Source of the DNA: a bacterium
GTDB taxonomy: Bacteria; Bacteroidota; Ignavibacteria; Kapaibacteriales; UBA2268
Length of the DNA: 35,824 bases
Direction of reading: 5' to 3'
NCBI GenBank assembly: GCA_030431515.1
Contig: JAUIIX010000031.1
Span: 1-35,824, forward strand
The notes beneath the pieces were generated by a model. That model was not told where the DNA came from and did no database searches. It was given only the letters and a program-made list of their open reading frames with translations. Shown here one piece after another: positions 1-25,927 of this stretch (position 1 is its first letter; each line of letters begins with the position of its first letter). A program made the translations under genes and the position numbers.

Positions 1-3000
1 CTTAATAGAGGTGGTTTTGATATGACTGGGACTATAATTAGAGGTGACAAACCAATCGCAATTATTTCAACTCATGAAAGAGTTATGATTCCTCCATTTT
101 TAGTATCAACAGGAAGAGATCACTTGTCTGCAATGCCACCACCTGTAAATACTTGGGGTAAGAATTATGTAACTATAGAATTAGATAGGGGTACTGACAA
201 AGGTGATTATTTTAGAGTTGTAGCAGGTGAAGATAATACATCTTTTGATGTAAGATGGTATGATAAAAAAACAGGTGAGTATTTAGGTAGATGGGATGGA
301 GTATTAGCAAAGAAAGGTGACTTTGACGATTATTCTAAAACTAATGCAAATATGCCTCATGATAATGAGTCAATTAGAGGAATATCATACTTTAAGTCAG
401 ATAAACCAATATTTGTAATGCAGTATTCATATTCTGCTAATTGGGATCAACCAAAAAAAGGAAATTATGACCCTTTTATGTTTCCAGTGTCATTAGTTGA
501 GCAGTTTACAACAGCTACAATATTTCAAACTCCTTCAAACTCTTCTGGTAACAACGAATATCTTGATAATTATTTGAATTTAGTAATTCATGCTGATGCT
601 GAAACAGAAGAAGAAAGACAAGATTTATTAAAAACTTTAAAAATGGATGGGAAATTTTTATTTGCGGCACATCCAGAAATGTTAGGTCAAAAATTTCCAC
701 CTTTGGGAACTCCTTATGATGATAAATTATACTGGGTAGTTGTAGAACCCGAAATTGGTGCTCATACTTTAGCTGGAGATGTATCATTTGGTGGATATAT
801 TTATGGATTTGCAAGTTATGATTCTTATGGTTGGCCAGCGGCAACTGCCTATAGAAATTTAGGTGAATTAGATACTTTACCTCCTGTATTAGAAATAATT
901 GAAGATTGTGGATATTATGAAATAAAAGCAACGGAATTTAGAAACTTTGAAGCGGGTTGCGATACATGTAGGCCTCAAGTCGATCAAGGAATGTCTCAAT
1001 TACCAACAATAATATCAATAGAGAATTTTAAAGATGCAAGAATTGATTATACAAAAGAACCAGATAAAAAACCAACTGAAAAATGGTTTGGATCACCAAT
1101 AGACTATGACTTAAATTTTATTTATGAAGTTATAGATAAGAAGAAAGATGCAATGGTGCATTTTATTTTACCTGACAATACTTTTGAAAATTTTGCTGAC
1201 ACAACTATTTATTATTATGCTGATAAACTACGCTTAGAAGAAGTAGTAGATTTTGGATTAAAAAGATTATATACTACAAATGAAATTAAAGTAAAATTAA
1301 TTTCTGACAAAGATTCAGAGACAATTATTTCTTCAATGAAATTCAAAAAACAAGATGGTGATTTCTTTACTATAGTTGATCCTGTAGGAGAAGTTATTAT
1401 ACCACCTAAAGGAGAAATTGAATTAACTTTGCAATATATACCTAAAAGAGAGTATTTGGATGCTAAAACTTTTGATGATGGTCAATATGATTTAGATTCA
1501 TTAATTATTGTAACTGAATGTGTTGAGTTTGCTTTCCCTGCTAAAGGTCAAGGTGGAGAGCCATATATGTATGTTTCTGATTGGAAAAATGAAACTATTG
1601 CTATAAACACTAAATCTCTTTCTAGTAATGGTGGAACAGATAAAGTATTTATCCAGAACTATAATATACAAAAACAAAGAATGGCTACATTCCCATTATA
1701 TGTAACTGGAATTGATGCTGATAAAATAATGGATGAAAATGGAACTTTAATGACTATAGCTCCATTTAGTTTTGTTAATAATATAGCATTAAATGTAAAT
1801 AACGATTTTACTACAACTTATACTTTACCACACACTGATATAGATAAAAGAGTAGGTTTAAATAGAGGAGAATTTGAATCTCCAACAACTGGTGTATTTA
1901 TTAGAGATATTCCTTTTAAATCAAATGCTGTTAACTATTTAATACCAGGTGGTGATGTTTTAGATGATACAACATCAAGATGGACAAGAACTGTTTTAAA
2001 TAGTTCTTCTAGTATTACTAGTGAGAGCTGGTTGAAAGAAAGATTATTGAGAACTGCCGCTGATTCTAAAGGACAAGTAAATAATGGAACTGTTTTAGTT
2101 AAAAATACTTCTACTCAAGTGGATGTTAAGAATAAATTAACATTAGTTGATTTATATATTACTCCTGGAAGTACAGGACTTAATAAATTGAAATCATCTG
2201 ATGGTGCATTTGTTATTAATATAGATCCAACATCGAATGGAAATAATTGGTTACAAAGAATAATTGATGGTAATCAGGGTAACTTAGAGTTATTCCCTAA
2301 TGGAACAACAGGTAAACCATTTGAAATTGGTATTCCATTCAAATTTACTCCACAATCAAGTTATGCAGGAAATTCAAATATAGTAAACGAAAATATCTAC
2401 GCAGTTTTAAAGAATGAAAGTGGAATATTAGATACATTAATTGGGAATTTAACTGGTGAGGTTTATTTACCAATTATTAAAACAACAGGTGAAGAAAATC
2501 TTAATGCTGTTTTAATAAATAATTTAGCTCCATACCAATTACAAATCATTATTGAAAATATTGGGTATAACAAACCACTTACAATATGGAATATAGCAGC
2601 ACCGGATAATGCTGATTTCACTTTTGATCCTGTATCAACTGGAGAAGCATTACCTACAGAAGCTAGTCCTTGGAATTTAGCTGTTGGTGAAAGTAAAGTT
2701 ATATATTATAATTTTACCCCAAGTGCTGTTGGTAGAAGAATTGGAAATGTTGAAATTACGCATTCTGGAAATATTGAAGGTGTCGAACCAACTGAAGATG
2801 GTGTTAATACTAGACAAATTGCTACAGAAACAATTATTGCTCCAGGTAGATCTTCAGGATTTAATGTTACTAATTTGAATTTAGAAGCAGATGTTAAATG
2901 TGATAATGATGATGGTATTATAACTGTTAGTAACTCAGGTTCTGATCCAGTTACAATTTCACATCTAAAACTAAGCGATGGTACAGACTTAAATAATGTT

Positions 3001-4029
3001 AATGAATTTATTTTTAGCTTTAATGGTGGAAATGTAAATAATTTCATTGGGGAAGTAATTGAAGCAGGTGGAAGTAGAGATATTAATGTTGAATTTAGAG
3101 CAAGAAGTTTACCAGCAGGTGTATTTAATTCTACTATAGTTGTTGATATTAGAGGGGAAAACTTAAATAATGAAACTCAATCTACTTCTTCAACTATTAC
3201 TGGTGTGACTGATGAAAATACAGTAATTTTCACAATGAAGAAGAATACTAATGTGCAGGATTTGAATCCTAATCTAATCTTAAATGATAGTGATTTTAAC
3301 TTAGGAGTATCTGTACAATTAGAAAAAGCAGATCCAACATGGGCAGAAGCAAACATTACAGAAGTAATATTCTCAATTAGATATAAATTAAATTGGTTAC
3401 AACCAGTTTATAAAGCTGGAAGTGCTAATACATTACAAGACATAGTATTAAAAGCTGGTTCAGCAGCTCCTGGTTGGAATTTTCAAGTTATTAGTAAGCA
3501 ATTGGATTACAATGAGGCAAGTTTAGAATGGGAAATTTTAACAATAAAAGGTACTGGTAATCCAATTCCAAACAATGGAGTTTTAGTTTTCCCTTACTTT
3601 AATGTTAAACTACCAAGTCTAAATTCTGATAGTACTAAATTAGAAAGTATTGAACCTGAATTAATTGATATTTCTTTTGGTGAAAGAGACTTCTGTATTT
3701 ACAATGTACCTGATAAAGGATTTGTAGATGTACAAGCATGTGCAGCTGCTGCAAGAACTATTCCTATCACTTTAGGACAGTTTGATAATACAATAAATCA
3801 AACAGCAAGTGCAATTGAAATGAATTATGCAGTACCTTTTGATTGTGAAGCAAAAATTGAAGTTGTAGATGTTAATGGTAATGTTGTTAGTATCCCAGTA
3901 TCTGAAAATAAAGGTAGAGGATTCTATAATGTATCAATTCCATTAAATAAACTATCAAGTGGAGCTCATATTATTAGATATACTGCAGGTCCATTAATTA
4001 AGACTGACAAGATTGTGATTGTAAAATAA
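1..4029 (+). CDS. Large secreted IgGFc-binding-like protein with T9SS sorting tail (5' partial)
   Basis: The reading frame is open to the left edge, so the ATG at 22 is internal and the true N-terminus is missing. Numbering from that Met, the first ~90 residues match the IgGFc-binding N-terminal domain: a D-M-T-G-T strand, DKPIAI, then DHLSAMPPPVNTWGKNY and the RVVAGEDNT segment. The middle holds beta-sandwich segments of the choice-of-anchor / ASPM-SPD-2-Hydin type (for example around residues 405-520 and 840-930). Residues ~1090-1200 resemble a cohesin-like fold, which is a weaker call. The last ~65 residues look like a type A T9SS C-terminal domain: KIEVVDVNGNVV, then LSSGAHIIRY, then KTDKIVIVK. 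I infer export through the outer membrane and cell-surface attachment or release, probably as an adhesin. The ligand is unknown. A strong terminator follows. Confidence 0.75.
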   Translation, partial: LNRGGFDMTGTIIRGDKPIAIISTHERVMIPPFLVSTGRDHLSAMPPPVNTWGKNYVTIELDRGTDKGDYFRVVAGEDNTSFDVRWYDKKTGEYLGRWDGVLAKKGDFDDYSKTNANMPHDNESIRGISYFKSDKPIFVMQYSYSANWDQPKKGNYDPFMFPVSLVEQFTTATIFQTPSNSSGNNEYLDNYLNLVIHADAETEEERQDLLKTLKMDGKFLFAAHPEMLGQKFPPLGTPYDDKLYWVVVEPEIGAHTLAGDVSFGGYIYGFASYDSYGWPAATAYRNLGELDTLPPVLEIIEDCGYYEIKATEFRNFEAGCDTCRPQVDQGMSQLPTIISIENFKDARIDYTKEPDKKPTEKWFGSPIDYDLNFIYEVIDKKKDAMVHFILPDNTFENFADTTIYYYADKLRLEEVVDFGLKRLYTTNEIKVKLISDKDSETIISSMKFKKQDGDFFTIVDPVGEVIIPPKGEIELTLQYIPKREYLDAKTFDDGQYDLDSLIIVTECVEFAFPAKGQGGEPYMYVSDWKNETIAINTKSLSSNGGTDKVFIQNYNIQKQRMATFPLYVTGIDADKIMDENGTLMTIAPFSFVNNIALNVNNDFTTTYTLPHTDIDKRVGLNRGEFESPTTGVFIRDIPFKSNAVNYLIPGGDVLDDTTSRWTRTVLNSSSSITSESWLKERLLRTAADSKGQVNNGTVLVKNTSTQVDVKNKLTLVDLYITPGSTGLNKLKSSDGAFVINIDPTSNGNNWLQRIIDGNQGNLELFPNGTTGKPFEIGIPFKFTPQSSYAGNSNIVNENIYAVLKNESGILDTLIGNLTGEVYLPIIKTTGEENLNAVLINNLAPYQLQIIIENIGYNKPLTIWNIAAPDNADFTFDPVSTGEALPTEASPWNLAVGESKVIYYNFTPSAVGRRIGNVEITHSGNIEGVEPTEDGVNTRQIATETIIAPGRSSGFNVTNLNLEADVKCDNDDGIITVSNSGSDPVTISHLKLSDGTDLNNVNEFIFSFNGGNVNNFIGEVIEAGGSRDINVEFRARSLPAGVFNSTIVVDIRGENLNNETQSTSSTITGVTDENTVIFTMKKNTNVQDLNPNLILNDSDFNLGVSVQLEKADPTWAEANITEVIFSIRYKLNWLQPVYKAGSANTLQDIVLKAGSAAPGWNFQVISKQLDYNEASLEWEILTIKGTGNPIPNNGVLVFPYFNVKLPSLNSDSTKLESIEPELIDISFGERDFCIYNVPDKGFVDVQACAAAARTIPITLGQFDNTINQTASAIEMNYAVPFDCEAKIEVVDVNGNVVSIPVSENKGRGFYNVSIPLNKLSSGAHIIRYTAGPLIKTDKIVIVK

Positions 4030-11516: not shown

Positions 11517-13361
11517 TTAAATCTTACCAATCAAATTTTCAGGTTTTAAGATTTCGTCAAGTTGCTCACGAGTTAATAATTTTCTTTCTAATACAATACC
11601 AATTATACTTTTATCCATTTCAAGTGCTTCTTTAGCTATTGATGACGAAGTTTCGTATCCTAATATTGGATTTAAGAAAGTTACAATTCCAATACTATTT
11701 TCAACCATACTTCTACAAACTTCTCTATTTGCGGTAATACCATCTACGCATTTTGTTTTTAAAACTACCATTCCATTTTTAAGAGAATCCATCATTTCGA
11801 ATAAACTAACTGCGATTATTGGCTCCATTACGTTTAATTCAAGTTGACCTGCTTCAGATGCCATTGTTATTGTTAATTCTTTACCTATGCAGTTGAAAGC
11901 AATTTGATTTACAACTTCTGGGATAACAGGGTTAACTTTACCAGGCATAATTGATGAACCTGGTTGCATTTTTGGAAGATTAATTTCATTAAATCCAGCT
12001 CTTGGACCTGAACTTAGAAGTCTTAAATCATTACAAATTTTTGATAATTTAACAGATAGTCTTTTTAAAACTGATGCAAAAATTACAAATGCTCCTGTAT
12101 CTTGAGTTGCTTCTATGTAATTTTCGGATTTTCTTAATTTTATTCCAGTAATTTTAGATAAATGTTTGATTACTAAATCTCTATATTCAGAACTTGCATT
12201 AATTCCAGTTCCAATTGCAGTTCCCCCAATATTCAATTCAAAAAGAAGTTGAACATTCACATCTATTCTAGATAATTCTTCTTCAAGTGTACAAGCATAA
12301 GCTTCAAAACTTTGTCCTAAAGTCATAGGTACTGCATCTTGTAATTGAGTTCTTCCCATTTTAATTACATCTGCAAATTCTTTACCTTTTTCTCTAAATG
12401 ATTCTACTAAATTCTGCAATGCTGCTTTCAATTTAATTGTTTTATAATAACAAGCAATTTTAATTGCATTAGGATAAATATCATTTGTAGATTGAGATAA
12501 GTTGATATGATTATTAGGATGACAATGGTCATAATCCCCTTTTTCATAACCCATTATTTCTAAAGCACGATTCGCAATTACTTCATTGGCATTCATATTT
12601 GTTGAAGTTCCTGCACCACCTTGGATTACATCTACAATAAAGTGAGTGTGAAATTTTCTATTTACAATCTCGTTACATGCTTTAATAATAGCTTTATACA
12701 TTTTTTCTGGAATTAAGCCAATATCATAATTGGCTTTACAAGCCGCTTTTTTAATTTGAATTAAAGCTATAATCAAATCAGTGTAATGATTTATAGAAAC
12801 GCCTGTAATAGGGAAATTTTCCTTTGCTCTTAAAGTTTGAATACCATAGTAAGCTTCATCGGGAACTTCTCTTTCGCCAAGTAAATCATGCTCTAATCGT
12901 GTCTTACCAGAAATATATTGGGTAGCAGTTCCTGTTGCATCAGTTGATGCTTTTTTTAGTCTTCTAGAAATTACTTTAGATATTTGAGTCAGAACTTTAG
13001 AAATAAGTCTTGGTTGTTCATCAAAAAGTTTATCAAAATCTGATTTATGTAATCTTAATAAAGTAGATTCCTTTTTAATTCTTGCACTACTTGAATGAGG
13101 ATAATCATCTAATAATCCACCTTCACCAAAGAAATCAGAAGTTTGAAAAGTTGTGATTAAGACTTCTCTACCAGGTGGAATTGTTTGAAGTAATTCTATT
13201 TGACCTTTTTCAAGGATATAAAAATATTGTCTTTTGTCATTAGCTTTAAATAAATATTCTTCACTTTTTGCAATTATTCTTTCAAATGATTTTGAAATTA
13301 AACTTAATTCTTCATTGTTAAGTGTTTTAAAAATTTCAACTTTTTCTAATATATTTTGCAT
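11517..13361 (-). CDS. Cyclic-nucleotide-binding domain fused to aspartate ammonia-lyase
   Basis: Residues ~1-135 form a CAP_ED-type cyclic-nucleotide-binding domain. It shows FYILEKGQIELL and then a phosphate-binding cassette around 78-96 (FGEGGLL, G79/E80). The cassette Arg that contacts the cyclic phosphate in CRP is His (H89), so ligand binding is uncertain. A linker (~136-152) leads to a complete lyase from ~154, beginning RLEHDLLGEREVPDEAYYG. The lyase carries the family signature GSSIMPGKVNP (468-478) and EAGQLELNVMEP, which favour AspA (aspartate to fumarate plus ammonia) over fumarase. E. coli AspA is ~478 residues with no such domain. I infer ligand-gated or localised aspartate breakdown. 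The gene is 3 bases after the metallopeptidase gene and abuts dnaG. Confidence 0.9.
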   Translation of the reverse strand: MQNILEKVEIFKTLNNEELSLISKSFERIIAKSEEYLFKANDKRQYFYILEKGQIELLQTIPPGREVLITTFQTSDFFGEGGLLDDYPHSSSARIKKESTLLRLHKSDFDKLFDEQPRLISKVLTQISKVISRRLKKASTDATGTATQYISGKTRLEHDLLGEREVPDEAYYGIQTLRAKENFPITGVSINHYTDLIIALIQIKKAACKANYDIGLIPEKMYKAIIKACNEIVNRKFHTHFIVDVIQGGAGTSTNMNANEVIANRALEIMGYEKGDYDHCHPNNHINLSQSTNDIYPNAIKIACYYKTIKLKAALQNLVESFREKGKEFADVIKMGRTQLQDAVPMTLGQSFEAYACTLEEELSRIDVNVQLLFELNIGGTAIGTGINASSEYRDLVIKHLSKITGIKLRKSENYIEATQDTGAFVIFASVLKRLSVKLSKICNDLRLLSSGPRAGFNEINLPKMQPGSSIMPGKVNPVIPEVVNQIAFNCIGKELTITMASEAGQLELNVMEPIIAVSLFEMMDSLKNGMVVLKTKCVDGITANREVCRSMVENSIGIVTFLNPILGYETSSSIAKEALEMDKSIIGIVLERKLLTREQLDEILKPENLIGKI

Positions 13362-14154: not shown

Positions 14155-14910
14155 TTATTTAATATTTAATGTTATGTCGCAGTTGTTTTTAATTATAACA
14201 CCATTTTGAGATTCAAAAATGATTGAAGGGTTGAATGTACCTACATCTTTTCCATATACTTTAAATTCAATATTTGAATTTGAATTTGCTTGTATCCATT
14301 TACCAAAACTAAGATTTGATAATAATTTAATATTATTATCATCATCATTAACTATAGATACTTTTTCGATTTTTCGAGGATAATTACTATAATTATAAAT
14401 TTTAACTTCGATTACCATAGAGTCATTTTTAGTTAAGTCAATATTTCCATAATCTTTTACCATTATATCTGGAACTATAGATTTAACAAATAGATTGTAA
14501 GTTGAATCATTTTGAATAACAATGTTATCTGTAGATATACCTACGTTTTTTTGAGAATGATTTATATATAGATTAAGACTTTTATTAGTATCAGGTTGAA
14601 TATAAATATCATTTAAATCTTGTAATGGATCGAAAAAGAAAAACGAAGGTTGGCTATTTAAAACACTGGCTAACTTAATATATTTAATATTGATAACTTT
14701 ATCAGTAATGTTTTTTATTCTAAATAATTCTTTGTTGAATGCATCTTTTTCTACAAAACCAAAATCAATTGTATCAACTGAAACAACAATATTTTTTTTG
14801 ATTTTATACTCATATTGTATATCTCTTGGTACATCAATATCAGTAGGAGATTGACAAGAAATAAATATAAGTAATATGAAAATATAATATTTGAGTTTAT
14901 TCAATATCAT
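14155..14910 (-). CDS. Lipoprotein with ASPM/Hydin-like beta-sandwich domains
   Basis: The 251-residue product begins with a lipoprotein signal (hydrophobic residues 8-17, then FISC with C19 as the lipidated Cys). The mature part contains two segments resembling Ig-like choice-of-anchor D / ASPM-SPD-2-Hydin domains: VDTIDFGFVEKDAFNKELFR (45-64) with an IKNITDKVINIKYIK strand pair, and a second around 153-250 (DYGNIDLTKNDSMVIEVKIYN). The start overlaps the anti-sigma/beta-barrel gene by 14 bases, so the two are translationally coupled. I infer a membrane-anchored periplasmic or surface partner of that signalling protein; no enzyme motif is visible. The operon ends here, 67 bases before the next unit. 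Confidence 0.7.
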   Translation of the reverse strand: MILNKLKYYIFILLIFISCQSPTDIDVPRDIQYEYKIKKNIVVSVDTIDFGFVEKDAFNKELFRIKNITDKVINIKYIKLASVLNSQPSFFFFDPLQDLNDIYIQPDTNKSLNLYINHSQKNVGISTDNIVIQNDSTYNLFVKSIVPDIMVKDYGNIDLTKNDSMVIEVKIYNYSNYPRKIEKVSIVNDDDNNIKLLSNLSFGKWIQANSNSNIEFKVYGKDVGTFNPSIIFESQNGVIIKNNCDITLNIK

Positions 14911-16081
14911 ATTTCATCCCGACATTTAAGCCACTTTTTGTAGAGTTAAATGTACTTCCACCATGGAAATATGTTAAGTTAGAAATTTCACCACCTGTGT
15001 ATAAGTACCATTTATTGTTTAATCTAAATTGAACAGCAATTTCACCTCTTGTAACTGGACCTAAGTTATTACCACCAATAAATGCTTTAGTGTAAAGTCT
15101 AAATCTATCATTAAATTCAATTGGAAGATAATATTTAGTAGATACTCCAAAATAATAAGCATTGAAATATTGTTGATATTTAATAGTTAAGTCATTTTGA
15201 ACGAATTGATACTTCTGGGCAAAGCTCTCTGAACCAGCTTCTATACCTACATCTATATTATCACTATATTCATAATATATTGATATTGAAGAGATATTAA
15301 ATTGATTAGTTTCAGGATTTTGAAAATTTAAATCTAAATTATTATTCGCAAAGGATTTTCTAATATCTATATTTAACTTATCGTAAAATGAGCTAAAATC
15401 TTCCTCGTTTCCATAAATTTTTCTTAATTTATATTTTTTATTTTTTGGTAATTCGAAATTTTGAGAATTTGTAGAGTTAAATATATTTGATTTAACTAAT
15501 TGATTTTCTGAATCAATTTTAGTATCAAAGTTAGAAACAAGATCATTATTAGAATTAATGTTAGTATTTTCTGAAGACTCTTCCTTTGTATTATAATTGA
15601 CATTACTATTTTGTAATCTATTTATATTGTACGAGTTAAAATTAGTATATTCCTGAATATTATTAATTTCATTTACATAAATATCTTGTAAATTAGGTAA
15701 ATCAATGGAAGATGAAACTTTATTGTAATTTAAATTTGCAAGTTCTTTGTTTTCTGTATTGACATTATTGTCATTAATCCCAAAGTAATATCCAACTGTT
15801 GTTGCTACTACAATTGCTGTAGATATAGATGAAATTATAAATGACTTAGATTTCCAGAATATGAATCCCAAACCAGAAGTTGCCAATATTTTTGATTTTA
15901 AGAAAGCAGGTGGTTGTTCTACTATTTTTCCATAAACATTCTTCATTTTTAAATGATAATTAAATTCATCCTGCAATTCAGGATTTTGATTAATAATATT
16001 TAAAATTTCAGAGGATTCGGTTGCATCTAACTCTCCATCCACTAAAGCAATGATTTTTTCAATTAGTATGTCATTATTCAT
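14897..16081 (-). CDS. Putative dual-membrane-spanning anti-sigma factor with C-terminal beta-barrel
   Basis: This 394-residue protein has four parts. Residues 1-60 resemble a short anti-sigma domain (IIALVDGELDATESSEI, then NPELQDEF) without the HxxxCxxC zinc motif. Residues ~80-101 are a membrane helix. Residues ~102-258 are a low-complexity Asn/Ser-rich linker. Residues ~260-394 show alternating amphipathic strands rich in Tyr/Phe/Gly, such as LTIKYQQYFNAYYFGVSTKY and KWYLYTGGEISNL, like an 8-stranded outer-membrane barrel. It ends YDIE, so the usual terminal aromatic is not the last residue. The sigma gene is 3 bases upstream. The layout matches the dual-membrane-spanning anti-sigma (Dma) type described in Bacteroides thetaiotaomicron. 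The barrel could instead be a periplasmic beta domain. Confidence 0.7.
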   Translation of the reverse strand: MNNDILIEKIIALVDGELDATESSEILNIINQNPELQDEFNYHLKMKNVYGKIVEQPPAFLKSKILATSGLGFIFWKSKSFIISSISTAIVVATTVGYYFGINDNNVNTENKELANLNYNKVSSSIDLPNLQDIYVNEINNIQEYTNFNSYNINRLQNSNVNYNTKEESSENTNINSNNDLVSNFDTKIDSENQLVKSNIFNSTNSQNFELPKNKKYKLRKIYGNEEDFSSFYDKLNIDIRKSFANNNLDLNFQNPETNQFNISSISIYYEYSDNIDVGIEAGSESFAQKYQFVQNDLTIKYQQYFNAYYFGVSTKYYLPIEFNDRFRLYTKAFIGGNNLGPVTRGEIAVQFRLNNKWYLYTGGEISNLTYFHGGSTFNSTKSGLNVGMKYDIE

Positions 16082-16084
16082 AAA

Positions 16085-16657
16085 TTATTCCAATAAAAAG
16101 TTTATTTCTTTAGAATAAGGAGACAAAACTTTTCTTAATTTTTCTTTTGCTCTATGGATTCTTATTCTAACAACAGGTAAAGTAATATCAAGCATTTCAG
16201 CAATTTCTGAATAAGAGAAGTTTAAAAACTCTTTTAATATCAAAGATTCTCTATATTCAAACGCTAGACTATCTAATGCAATACTTATAATTTCATTTAA
16301 TTCTTTGTCATCTCGTTTTTGATTTGAGATTAAATGAAAATCTTCAACATACACCATAGTGTTTCTAATATTGTCTTTTTCATTTAAGCACAAGTTTCGT
16401 GCAACTCTAATAACGTAACCAGCAAAATTAGTCATAACTTTGCCTTCTTTTGAAGCTTCTATCACTCTGAGAAAAGTTTCTTGAAAAATATCACTCGAAG
16501 AATTTTCATTAGATAATATTTTTTTACAATAATTATATAAAATTATTGAATATCTAGAATATAACTCTTCAAATGCTGATTTTGCAACACTTTTCTTGCT
16601 ATTTGCAAGTAATGAGAATAGCTCTTCATCTGAAATATTTGAAAATTGTATTTTCAT
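16085..16657 (-). CDS. ECF-type RNA polymerase sigma factor
   Basis: The 190-residue protein has sigma region 2 (FEELYSRYSIILYNYCKKIL, SSSDIFQETFLRVIE, then FAGYVIRVARNLCLN) and region 4 (LAFEYRESLILKEFLNFSYS, EIAEMLDITLPVVRIRIHRA), with no region 1.1 or 3, as expected of group 4 sigma factors. A TTG at 16666 would add three residues; the ATG at 16657 is preferred. It is followed after 3 bases by the anti-sigma/beta-barrel gene, the usual sigma/anti-sigma order. The target promoters are unknown. The upstream region shares a 9-bp inverted repeat with the divergent glycosyltransferase gene and lacks a clear TAnnTTTG box, which would be compatible with autoregulation. Confidence 0.92.
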   Translation of the reverse strand: MKIQFSNISDEELFSLLANSKKSVAKSAFEELYSRYSIILYNYCKKILSNENSSSDIFQETFLRVIEASKEGKVMTNFAGYVIRVARNLCLNEKDNIRNTMVYVEDFHLISNQKRDDKELNEIISIALDSLAFEYRESLILKEFLNFSYSEIAEMLDITLPVVRIRIHRAKEKLRKVLSPYSKEINFLLE

Positions 16658-16700
16658 CTTACTCAATTAACTAAATAGAGGCGATTTTGTTACATTTTTA

Positions 16701-24532: not shown

Positions 24533-25927
24533 ATGGAAAAACAGAAAACCGTAAAAAATCCAGCTTCATTTGAGGGAGTAGGGTTACATACGGGAAATAA
24601 ATCAACAATTACTTTTAATCCAGCACCTACTAATTATGGTTTGAGATTTATAAGAATAGATGTTGATTCTAACTTTGAAATACCGGCTTTAGTTGATTAT
24701 GTAGTTGATTTGTCGAGGGGTACCACTTTAGGTATAAATGGGATTGAAGTTCATACAGTAGAACATGTATTGTCTGCTTTAACAGGTTTGGGGATTGATA
24801 ATTGCAGAATTGAATTATCAGCAAATGAACCACCTGTTGGTGATGGAAGTGCTATGCCTTATGTTAATACTCTATTAGAAGCGGGGATTGTAGAACAAGA
24901 TAAAGAAATTGAAGTTTTTAATCTTAAAGAAATGATAAGATTTAAAAATGACGATAAAGAAATTGAAATAGTTGCTTTACCTAATGAAGATTATAGATTA
25001 ACAGTCTTAGTTGATTATGCTAATCCTGCATTAGGTAGCCAACATACTGGTTTGTTTGATTTTAAAAATGAATTTGTACCAGAATTTGCTTCGGCACGTA
25101 CTTTTTGTTTTTTAACTGAATTACAATATTTACATAAATCAGGTTTGATTAAAGGCGGTTCTTTAGAGTCTGGTGTAGTTATTGAAGACAAAGCAGTAAG
25201 TAATGACGAACTTAACGAAATAAAAGATATTTTTAATTTAGATGTTGCTCCTGTAAAAGGAACAAATGGAATCTTAAACAATACTGAATTAAGATATAGA
25301 AATGAACCTGCAAGACATAAATTGCTTGACATGATTGGTGATTTGACTTTAATTGGTGTTAGAATAAATGCACAAATTATGGCTGCAAGACCTGGACACG
25401 CAAGTAATATAGAAGTAGCAAAGAAAATAAGGGAGCAATATTTGAAATACAAAGATAAAGAAAAACTTATGCCTAATGTTGATAACTATTATAATATTCA
25501 ACAGATTCTTGAAATTCTTCCTCATAGATACCCTTTTCTACTTGTAGATAGAGTATTAGATTATAATGAAGAAGAGTCTTTAATGACTGCATTGAAAAAT
25601 GTTTCATTTAATGAACCATATTTTCCAGGACATTTTCCAGAAAAACCTATTATGCCAGGAGTACTTATACTTGAAGCAATGGCTCAAGTTGGAGGTATAT
25701 TAATTTATGTATCTCAAGATAAAAAAGTTACAGAAGGTAAAAAAGCATTTTTTATGACAGTGAATAATGCTAAATTTAGAAAACCAATAGTACCTGGTGA
25801 TCAGATTATTATGAAAGTAAAACTTGTTCAAAAAAAATTAGGGGCTTTTAAGTTTGAAGCAGTTGCTTATGTTGATGATGGCATAGTAGCTCAAGCTGAA
25901 CTTCAAGCCGCTTTAGTAGAGGGTTAA
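24533..25927 (+). CDS. lpxC-fabZ: LpxC-FabZ fusion: UDP-acyl-GlcNAc deacetylase / hydroxyacyl-ACP dehydratase
   Basis: This bifunctional cytoplasmic enzyme works in lipid A and fatty-acid synthesis. Residues 1-~305 are LpxC, with the N-terminal FEGVGLHTG, zinc ligands H78 (HTVEH), H262 and D266 ([10 protein letters not shown]), and catalytic H289 (GHASN). Residues ~318-464 are FabZ, with [13 protein letters not shown] and active-site H367 (FPGHFP) and E381 (ILEAMAQ), 14 residues apart as in E. coli. The fusion is characteristic of Bacteroidota, Chlorobi and relatives and couples lipid A commitment to supply of the 3-hydroxyacyl chain. lpxA follows after 5 bases. Confidence 0.97.

Follow-up and report, generated by a model that had tools for sequence, protein, structure and literature searches.

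The 35,824-nucleotide stretch of contig JAUIIX010000031.1 analyzed here (the window; assembly GCA_030431515.1, Kapabacteria) carried on its minus strand a three-gene locus encoding an extracytoplasmic function (ECF) sigma factor, an anti-sigma factor and a lipoprotein, in the order and at the positions given in the original prediction made from this DNA. We propose, at a probability of about 0.58, that the locus is an autoregulated outer-membrane sensing operon, in which the β-barrel of a dual-membrane-spanning anti-sigma (Dma) protein docks a tagged and exchangeable lipoprotein. Because the architecture and gene order recurred in more than 100 divergent loci, the arrangement is more than chance.

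The anti-sigma factor was modeled as one polypeptide spanning the envelope. Its AlphaFold2 model, built with 18 aligned sequences, had a low mean predicted local distance difference test score (pLDDT, 62.8) because of the tether. N-terminal helices at residues 3-50 had block pLDDT values of 78-88, and the sole Pfam trace in the protein lay here (RseA_N, residues 8-44, E = 0.0086, under the cut-off). As expected from the first reading, the anti-sigma domain had no zinc motif, since the protein contains no cysteine; the motif HxxxCxxC was found in 0/129 Dma proteins. Residues 65-226 were disordered in the model (pLDDT <50). The putative membrane helix at residues 83-102 falls inside this region, so its assignment rests on hydrophobicity, and a hydrophobic 19-residue segment was present in 98% of 129 Dma proteins, that of the window included. 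The tether that follows (25% Asn, 11% Ser) measured 133 residues, shorter than the ~155 first estimated. A linker motif near residue 129, [IL]P..SF, looked conserved among the 18 aligned sequences, matched few of 102 proteins and was dropped. Eight strands at residues 236-392 formed the C-terminal domain (block pLDDT 74-95, except for a loop at 251-259 below 50). All 50 listed of 62 Foldseek matches at E ≤ 0.001 were outer-membrane or designed membrane barrels. VIA-align of residues ~230-394 returned a Legionella porin (Z 16.0, root-mean-square deviation [rmsd] 5.1), NspA (Z 14.7, rmsd 3.0), OmpA (14.6, 3.4), OprF (14.0, 3.2) and OmpW (13.1, 4.0), with soluble barrels ranking lower (Z up to 11.8). 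Model and both fold searches thus gave an outer-membrane barrel and not a confident soluble domain. Six charged positions conserved in the family consensus of the barrel (R241, E281, E285, R345, E365, K382) were all present in the window protein. Together with the adjacent ECF sigma gene, these modeled features are those of the published Dma architecture, to which the protein had already been likened, and place it in a known kind.

The sigma factor matched Sigma70_r2 (E = 7e-10) and Sigma70_r4_2 (E = 2e-12) in Pfam. Sigma factors paired with Dma proteins are assigned to ECF group 21; among TIGRFAM models, the window's sigma factor exceeded the cut-off of TIGR02937 (sigma70-ECF), and its best match, TIGR02985, fell below its own. 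The lipoprotein has the lipobox ILLIFISC-QSP, with lipidation predicted at Cys19. Its model (pLDDT 83.7) comprised two Ig-like domains, and CEP192 and HYDIN headed the fold lists, in keeping with the two Hydin-like domains first proposed. Across both domains, VIA-align matched CEP192 SPD-2 at Z 13.1-13.5 (rmsd 8.6-9.0); a single CEP192 ASH domain reached Z 11.7 (rmsd 2.6) and HYDIN domains Z 10.7-11.1 (rmsd 2.2-2.5). Other Ig-like folds were close behind, such as complement C4 (Z 10.9), and Pfam matches to ASH/Hydin-like families were sub-threshold only. Both domains therefore share the ASH (PapD-like) fold with HYDIN and CEP192, but these are eukaryotic ciliary or centrosomal proteins, and the fold alone is held in common, with other Ig-like folds scoring nearly as high.

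We evaluated how often the three-gene order recurs in a discovery set of 102 unique Dmas and a held-out set of 80, for which not every profile match was used. Held-out Dmas shared <80% barrel identity with the discovery set and with each other, a filter that removed 48 of 128 candidates. Lipoproteins were counted in 98 discovery loci (two short-tailed loci and two fragments being excluded) and in 77 held-out loci (three with short tails were left out). The background was 1.04 Mb from four genomes of the order, with 728 open reading frames (ORFs), 378 same-strand neighbor pairs and 60 lipobox ORFs, a few of which are probably not lipoproteins. The Dma profile matched 116 of the 123 genomes searched in the window's order at E ≤ 1e-20, often in several copies per genome. 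An ECF sigma gene lay upstream in 95/102 discovery and 77/77 held-out loci. By a single mechanical lipobox test, a lipoprotein gene lay directly downstream in 68/98 discovery and 60/77 held-out loci versus 31/378 background pairs (Fisher p ~2e-34 and 4e-36). A lenient lipobox test found 79 lipoproteins among the 102 discovery rows. The strict counts are lower bounds, as the test missed lipoproteins visible by eye in about twelve of its 30 discovery failures and seven of its 17 held-out failures (e.g., L012, L061). Seven Dma loci were seen in the window's genome, five with a lipoprotein (L001, L002, L003, L004, L382). The nearest named loci by sigma factor (L052-L072) came from metagenome-assembled genomes (MAGs) labeled Candidatus Kapaibacterium, Kapabacteria, Ignavibacteria, Bacteroidetes, Chlorobiota, Chloroherpeton or bacterium, and 13 of these 21 showed sigma, Dma and lipoprotein in order by eye. 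At E ≤ 1e-6 the Dma profile had matches in 53/296 genomes of a phylum sample; 24 of these genomes belong to the window's order, and most of the rest matched by the N-terminal part alone. A search with the profile in five genomes reached through the loci gave no match and, having no positive control, was uninformative. Among the genomes of these searches, a 7.9-Mb genome (G050) had the most Dma-like matches, 14 or 15.

The lipoproteins shared a short tag after the lipidated cysteine, with the consensus C-x-[SD]-[PS]-[LTI]-[DG]-[IVL]-[DEN]-[AT]-[NP]-[RVI]. Each discovery lipoprotein was scored against a profile built without its own body cluster, and the cysteine was re-picked by hand in three (L173, L183, L187). 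Scores of at least 6 bits were reached by 56/79 discovery lipoproteins and of at least 4 bits by 64/79, compared to 0/60 and 1/60 in the background; held-out lipoproteins scored against the fixed discovery profile gave 45/60 and 49/60. Grouped at E = 1e-3, the bodies behind the tag of 79 proteins fell into 26 clusters; at E = 0.01, those of 129 proteins fell into 16. When the 16 looser clusters were left out in turn, 69/129 lipoproteins still scored at least 6 bits and 75/129 at least 4, with 0/60 in the background at 6 bits. The two largest body groups (63 and 45 members) had no profile-profile similarity (hhalign probability 0.1%), and the tag reached 6 bits in 34/63 and 23/45 of their members. 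Lipoproteins with DUF4397 (L014) had a weaker tag, at 3.2 bits with their own cluster left out, and merged with the ASH group at the looser cut-off. Surface lipoproteins of Bacteroidota carry a lipoprotein export signal (LES), K-(D/E)2 or Q-A-(D/E)2, after the cysteine, as reported in the consulted portion of PMC5080379. The LES was absent from the window lipoprotein (CQSPTDID), and was present in 1/129 Dma-linked tags and 3/60 background lipoproteins. The sole background lipoprotein with a tag-like start (CKENTIYDNNR, 4.4 bits; L227:12396-13079, minus strand) is encoded immediately before a 313-aa protein whose start resembles a signal peptide, with no Dma among the neighboring ORFs examined.

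Tag and barrel varied together. Partial Mantel tests used 71 of the 79 discovery pairs (those with no sigma found, a short Dma, or L024 were left out) and 58 of the 60 held-out pairs (without L343 and L344). Controlling for sigma factor, anti-sigma domain and lipoprotein body, tag and barrel distances correlated at r = 0.30 (p = 0.0005) in the discovery pairs, and this was replicated in the held-out pairs (r = 0.32, p = 0.001). The correlation was kept among pairs with non-homologous bodies (r = 0.26). Tag and anti-sigma domain showed no significant correlation (r = -0.07 discovery, 0.06 held-out), and tag and body correlated at 0.18 and 0.11. The barrel half encoded nearer the lipoprotein gene was not the stronger one (C half 0.228, N half 0.275). 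Covarying positions in the discovery pairs hinted at a clustering on the extracellular rim of the barrel. The 14-base overlap of the anti-sigma and lipoprotein genes, correctly noted at first and read as a sign of partnership, says little by itself, and overlap counts, being based on the longest ORF, may be too high; the recurrent order, the shared tag and the covariation with the barrel are stronger evidence.

Of the hexamers in front of the sigma genes, TGTAAC was the most strongly enriched (48/172 segments versus 10.5 expected), and in the clearer cases of a bipartite alignment it was followed 17 bases later by GT[TC]A. Two upstream slices (L032, L333) were overlong in this alignment and probably also in the hexamer count. 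The window site (TGTAAC, then GTTAAT) follows the consensus TGTAAC-N17-GTTA. As this promoter-like site ends eight bases before it, the ATG at 16657 is the most likely sigma start, and the sigma transcript would be nearly leaderless. The loose bipartite pattern occurred at 28 sites in the window's genome versus 14 for the reversed pattern, and the extended form of the window site, allowing up to three mismatches, at 16 sites including the window's own versus none reversed. Once the window's own site and another at the end of a contig were set aside, 14 could be assessed, though most downstream ORFs extend past the stretch examined; by eye, 12 of these 14 precede an ORF starting with a signal-peptide-like stretch, six of them at 266-396 bases. 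The candidate regulon includes a VWA protein, IgGFc-binding proteins, sortilin/BNR-like propellers (some under the Pfam cut-off) and family-less proteins, and one further extended site precedes a small ORF with a type IX secretion system (T9SS) sorting domain. Since similar sites mostly precede genes for exported proteins, autoregulation and a surface-protein regulon are likely, and the regulon is put forward from sequence patterns as a candidate, not a result. Ten of the sixteen sites (L395, L402, L409, L413, L415, L419, L421, L423, L425, L426) share upstream sequence, over ~40 bases in the clearest, so the sites are not all independent; this suggests that these ten copies spread with a duplicated gene or repeat family. 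Transposon ends were rejected as a general origin, as the window site and five others lack the shared upstream sequence, though they might account for the other ten. The window itself encodes a 1,335-aa protein with an IgGFc-binding domain (22-4029, plus strand). Elsewhere in the genome, copies of the sigma promoter precede relatives of this protein, identified by Pfam in L395 and L420 and by eye in L424.

In the mechanism we propose, the N-terminal helices of the anti-sigma factor would hold the sigma factor at the inner membrane, while the disordered tether would cross the periplasm to the eight-stranded barrel in the outer membrane. The lipoprotein, presumably anchored in the outer membrane, would dock on the barrel by its post-cysteine tag. 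The sensing or load-bearing part would be its exchangeable body, which in the window consists of two ASH domains. If outer-membrane assembly or the pairing of barrel and lipoprotein were disturbed, the barrel might change its state or the tether might be pulled. The anti-sigma factor would then be inactivated, probably by proteolysis, and the freed sigma factor would switch on the operon that encodes it, along with genes for exported surface proteins. Proteolytic release of sigma factors is known from other anti-sigma factors and is applied here by analogy. We further postulate, more tentatively and at somewhat less than even odds, that the Dma barrel recognizes the 11-residue tag as a docking code, which would make the operon a modular receptor with a fixed tether and barrel and a plug-in lipoprotein sensor. 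Such a receptor would let bacteria change the surface cue they respond to with the signaling route left intact. The recurrent, tagged third component is a concrete and testable candidate for one-step signaling from the outer membrane to a sigma factor. The findings also extend the Dma architecture through an order outside the gut Bacteroidales, with a promoter sequence from which regulons can be read.

Several observations weigh against a docked lipoprotein sensor. The strict lipobox test failed in 30/98 discovery and 17/77 held-out loci and in two of the seven loci of the window's own genome (L381 and L383, which have no lipoprotein), and by eye about ten of the 17 held-out failures were real or unclear absences, as were those discovery failures in which no missed lipoprotein was visible. 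A Dma can therefore do without a lipoprotein, and the partner is frequent; "obligate", as first suggested, is too strong. Tag scores fell below 6 bits in 23/79 discovery and 15/60 held-out lipoproteins. The tag also correlated weakly with the sigma factor (0.13 and 0.15; 0.18 among non-homologous bodies), bodies correlated with both barrel and anti-sigma domain (0.23-0.31), and partial Mantel tests do not fully remove shared ancestry. The placement of covariation at the outer end of the barrel held up only weakly in the held-out pairs (Spearman 0.13, after 0.29 in discovery); of 150 null draws, 5, 5 and 14 did as well, and the top 25 columns did not lie higher on average. An eight-stranded barrel is narrow, which makes threading through its lumen doubtful. 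Two sister MAGs, one of them 76% complete, showed no copy of the extended promoter. Homology with Dma-like proteins of Bacteroidaceae was not shown by hhalign (18 versus 3 sequences, probability 14%, E = 0.0019, 27 columns). In the consulted portions of two reports, NigD lipoproteins behave as regulon products (PMC13114119), and deletion of the third gene of the Bacteroides dma2 operon, BT_1557, left the vesiculation of a dma2 mutant unchanged (PMC13088901). The BT_1557 result would fit a sensor or an effector, as any partner of Dma2 would be idle in a strain that lacks it.

These last reports bear on the main rival explanation, in which the lipoprotein is an output: an envelope-protective lipoprotein induced by the sigma factor, like NigD of Bacteroides and Phocaeicola, with the tag as a delivery or packing signal. 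Loss of the anti-sigma factor raises nigD genes and dma2-operon genes, a dma1 mutant forms its extra vesicles only with NigD1 present, and a dma2 mutant vesiculates the same without BT_1557, according to the portions consulted (PMC13088901, PMC13114119); most of the other candidate regulon genes also look exported. A pure effector, however, need not adjoin the anti-sigma gene in most loci, need not share a tag across unrelated bodies, and need not carry a tag that tracks the barrel yet is uncorrelated with the anti-sigma domain, and we regard this explanation as unlikely, though it is the strongest of those set against docking. As a special case of docking, the barrel might serve as an assembly or export checkpoint for its own lipoprotein, an empty barrel leading to sigma release. 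Gene order and tag-barrel covariation would fit, and RcsF offers a precedent for a lipoprotein-barrel complex that reports outer-membrane damage (PMC4942254, consulted in part); but some Dma operons have no lipoprotein, and we regard a checkpoint as distinctly improbable. We give least credence to the lipoprotein being a passenger kept by linkage, with tag and covariation inherited through common descent of the operon. Body clusters do merge as the cut-off is loosened (26 to 16, with the DUF4397 and ASH groups joining), so some bodies are remote relatives. Against this, the two largest body groups are dissimilar and yet both tagged, no background lipoprotein reached 6 bits, and covariation was not stronger for the nearer barrel half. 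A barrel that docks a tagged lipoprotein remains the reading we prefer.

Features of the sigma/anti-sigma/lipoprotein locus, in positions of the window.
Feature	Position	Strand	Evidence and details
-35 element TGTAAC, putative operon promoter	16689..16694	-	Top enriched hexamer, bipartite alignment, genome pattern match
-10 element GTTAAT, 17-base spacer, 8 bases 5' of the sigma ATG	16666..16671	-	Alignment, pattern match, position count
ECF sigma factor	16085..16657	-	190 aa from ATG 16657; alternative TTG 16666 gives 193 aa
Dma-type anti-sigma gene, 394 aa	14897..16081	-	ORF, Pfam, AlphaFold2 model, fold matches
Predicted cytoplasmic anti-sigma domain, residues 1-50, no Cys, DGEL motif	15932..16081	-	Model helices 3-14, 20-32, 34-50; sub-threshold RseA_N
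Predicted inner-membrane helix, residues 83-102	15776..15835	-	Model helix (pLDDT <50), hydrophobicity
Predicted disordered Asn/Ser-rich periplasmic tether, residues 103-235, 133 aa	15377..15775	-	Low pLDDT, composition
Predicted 8-stranded outer-membrane barrel, residues 236-394	14900..15376	-	Model, Foldseek, VIA-align
Anti-sigma/lipoprotein gene overlap, 14 bases	14897..14910	-	ORF coordinates
Lipoprotein, 251 aa, two ASH/Hydin-like domains, probably in the outer membrane	14155..14910	-	Lipobox, model, folds
11-residue tag QSPTDIDVPRD, residues 20-30, directly after lipidated Cys19	14821..14853	-	Tag consensus, tests
Tandem ASH/Hydin-like domains, residues ~39-148 and 149-251	14158..14796	-	Model, fold matches

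Elsewhere in the window, a 614-aa fusion (11517-13361, minus strand) of an N-terminal cyclic-nucleotide-binding domain with a fumarase-type lyase (PF00027, PF00206, PF10415) looks unusual, and a 464-aa protein (24533-25927, plus strand) joins LpxC to a FabA-like domain.

Among known systems, the closest in architecture are Dma1/Das1 and Dma2/Das2 of Bacteroides thetaiotaomicron, which, in the portion of PMC13088901 consulted, likewise have an adjacent ECF sigma factor, an N-terminal anti-sigma domain, one membrane helix, a long disordered tether and a C-terminal β-barrel. The third gene had at first appeared to be a novelty of the window operon; however, according to the same source, dma2 and das2 share an operon of three genes with BT_1557 (DUF4943), whose product is described there as being of unknown function. 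DUF4943 was found in 5/41 genomes of the family of a Bacteroidaceae MAG, with a lipobox in all five loci. Three of the five (L223, L225, L226) have it behind the end-piece of a sigma factor and a protein resembling an anti-sigma factor, in which a membrane helix, a tether and a barrel-like end were visible by eye. The DUF4943 lipoproteins of L222 and L224 have no Dma neighbor and lie between nadC-like and nitronate-monooxygenase-like genes (named by eye). The likeness to Dma2/Das2 thus extends to a third operon gene of a lipobox family, but the lipoprotein family is a different one, the post-cysteine tag was not evident in the DUF4943 proteins of the five loci, and the Dma1 and Dma2 systems belong to gut Bacteroidales and not to Kapabacteria. 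In EcfO/Reo of Phocaeicola vulgatus (M0N98_03761/03760), the anti-sigma factor also spans the periplasm to an outer-membrane barrel and the neighboring locus number (03762) belongs to a NigD surface-lipoprotein gene, as reported in the portions consulted (PMC9308784, PMC13114119). There, a toxin that binds lipid A-core induces the sigma/anti-sigma pair (PMC9308784), which by analogy favors the sensing operon proposed here. By locus number the NigD gene is on the sigma side and not behind the anti-sigma gene, and the induction data are from P. vulgatus alone. The portions of the Dma literature consulted name no ligand or partner of the barrel, and our literature searches found no tagged lipoprotein partner of a Dma, though reports outside those searches may exist. 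RcsF, with its outer-membrane barrel proteins, is alike in the way it works, as a lipoprotein and barrel pair that reports envelope damage; its Rcs response runs through borrowed barrels, whereas in the window operon the barrel belongs to the anti-sigma factor and is encoded with the lipoprotein (PMC4942254, in the portion consulted). What the Kapabacteria add to these systems is a systematic lipoprotein partner, its tag, the covariation of tag and barrel, a promoter with a candidate regulon, and the spread of the arrangement through the order.

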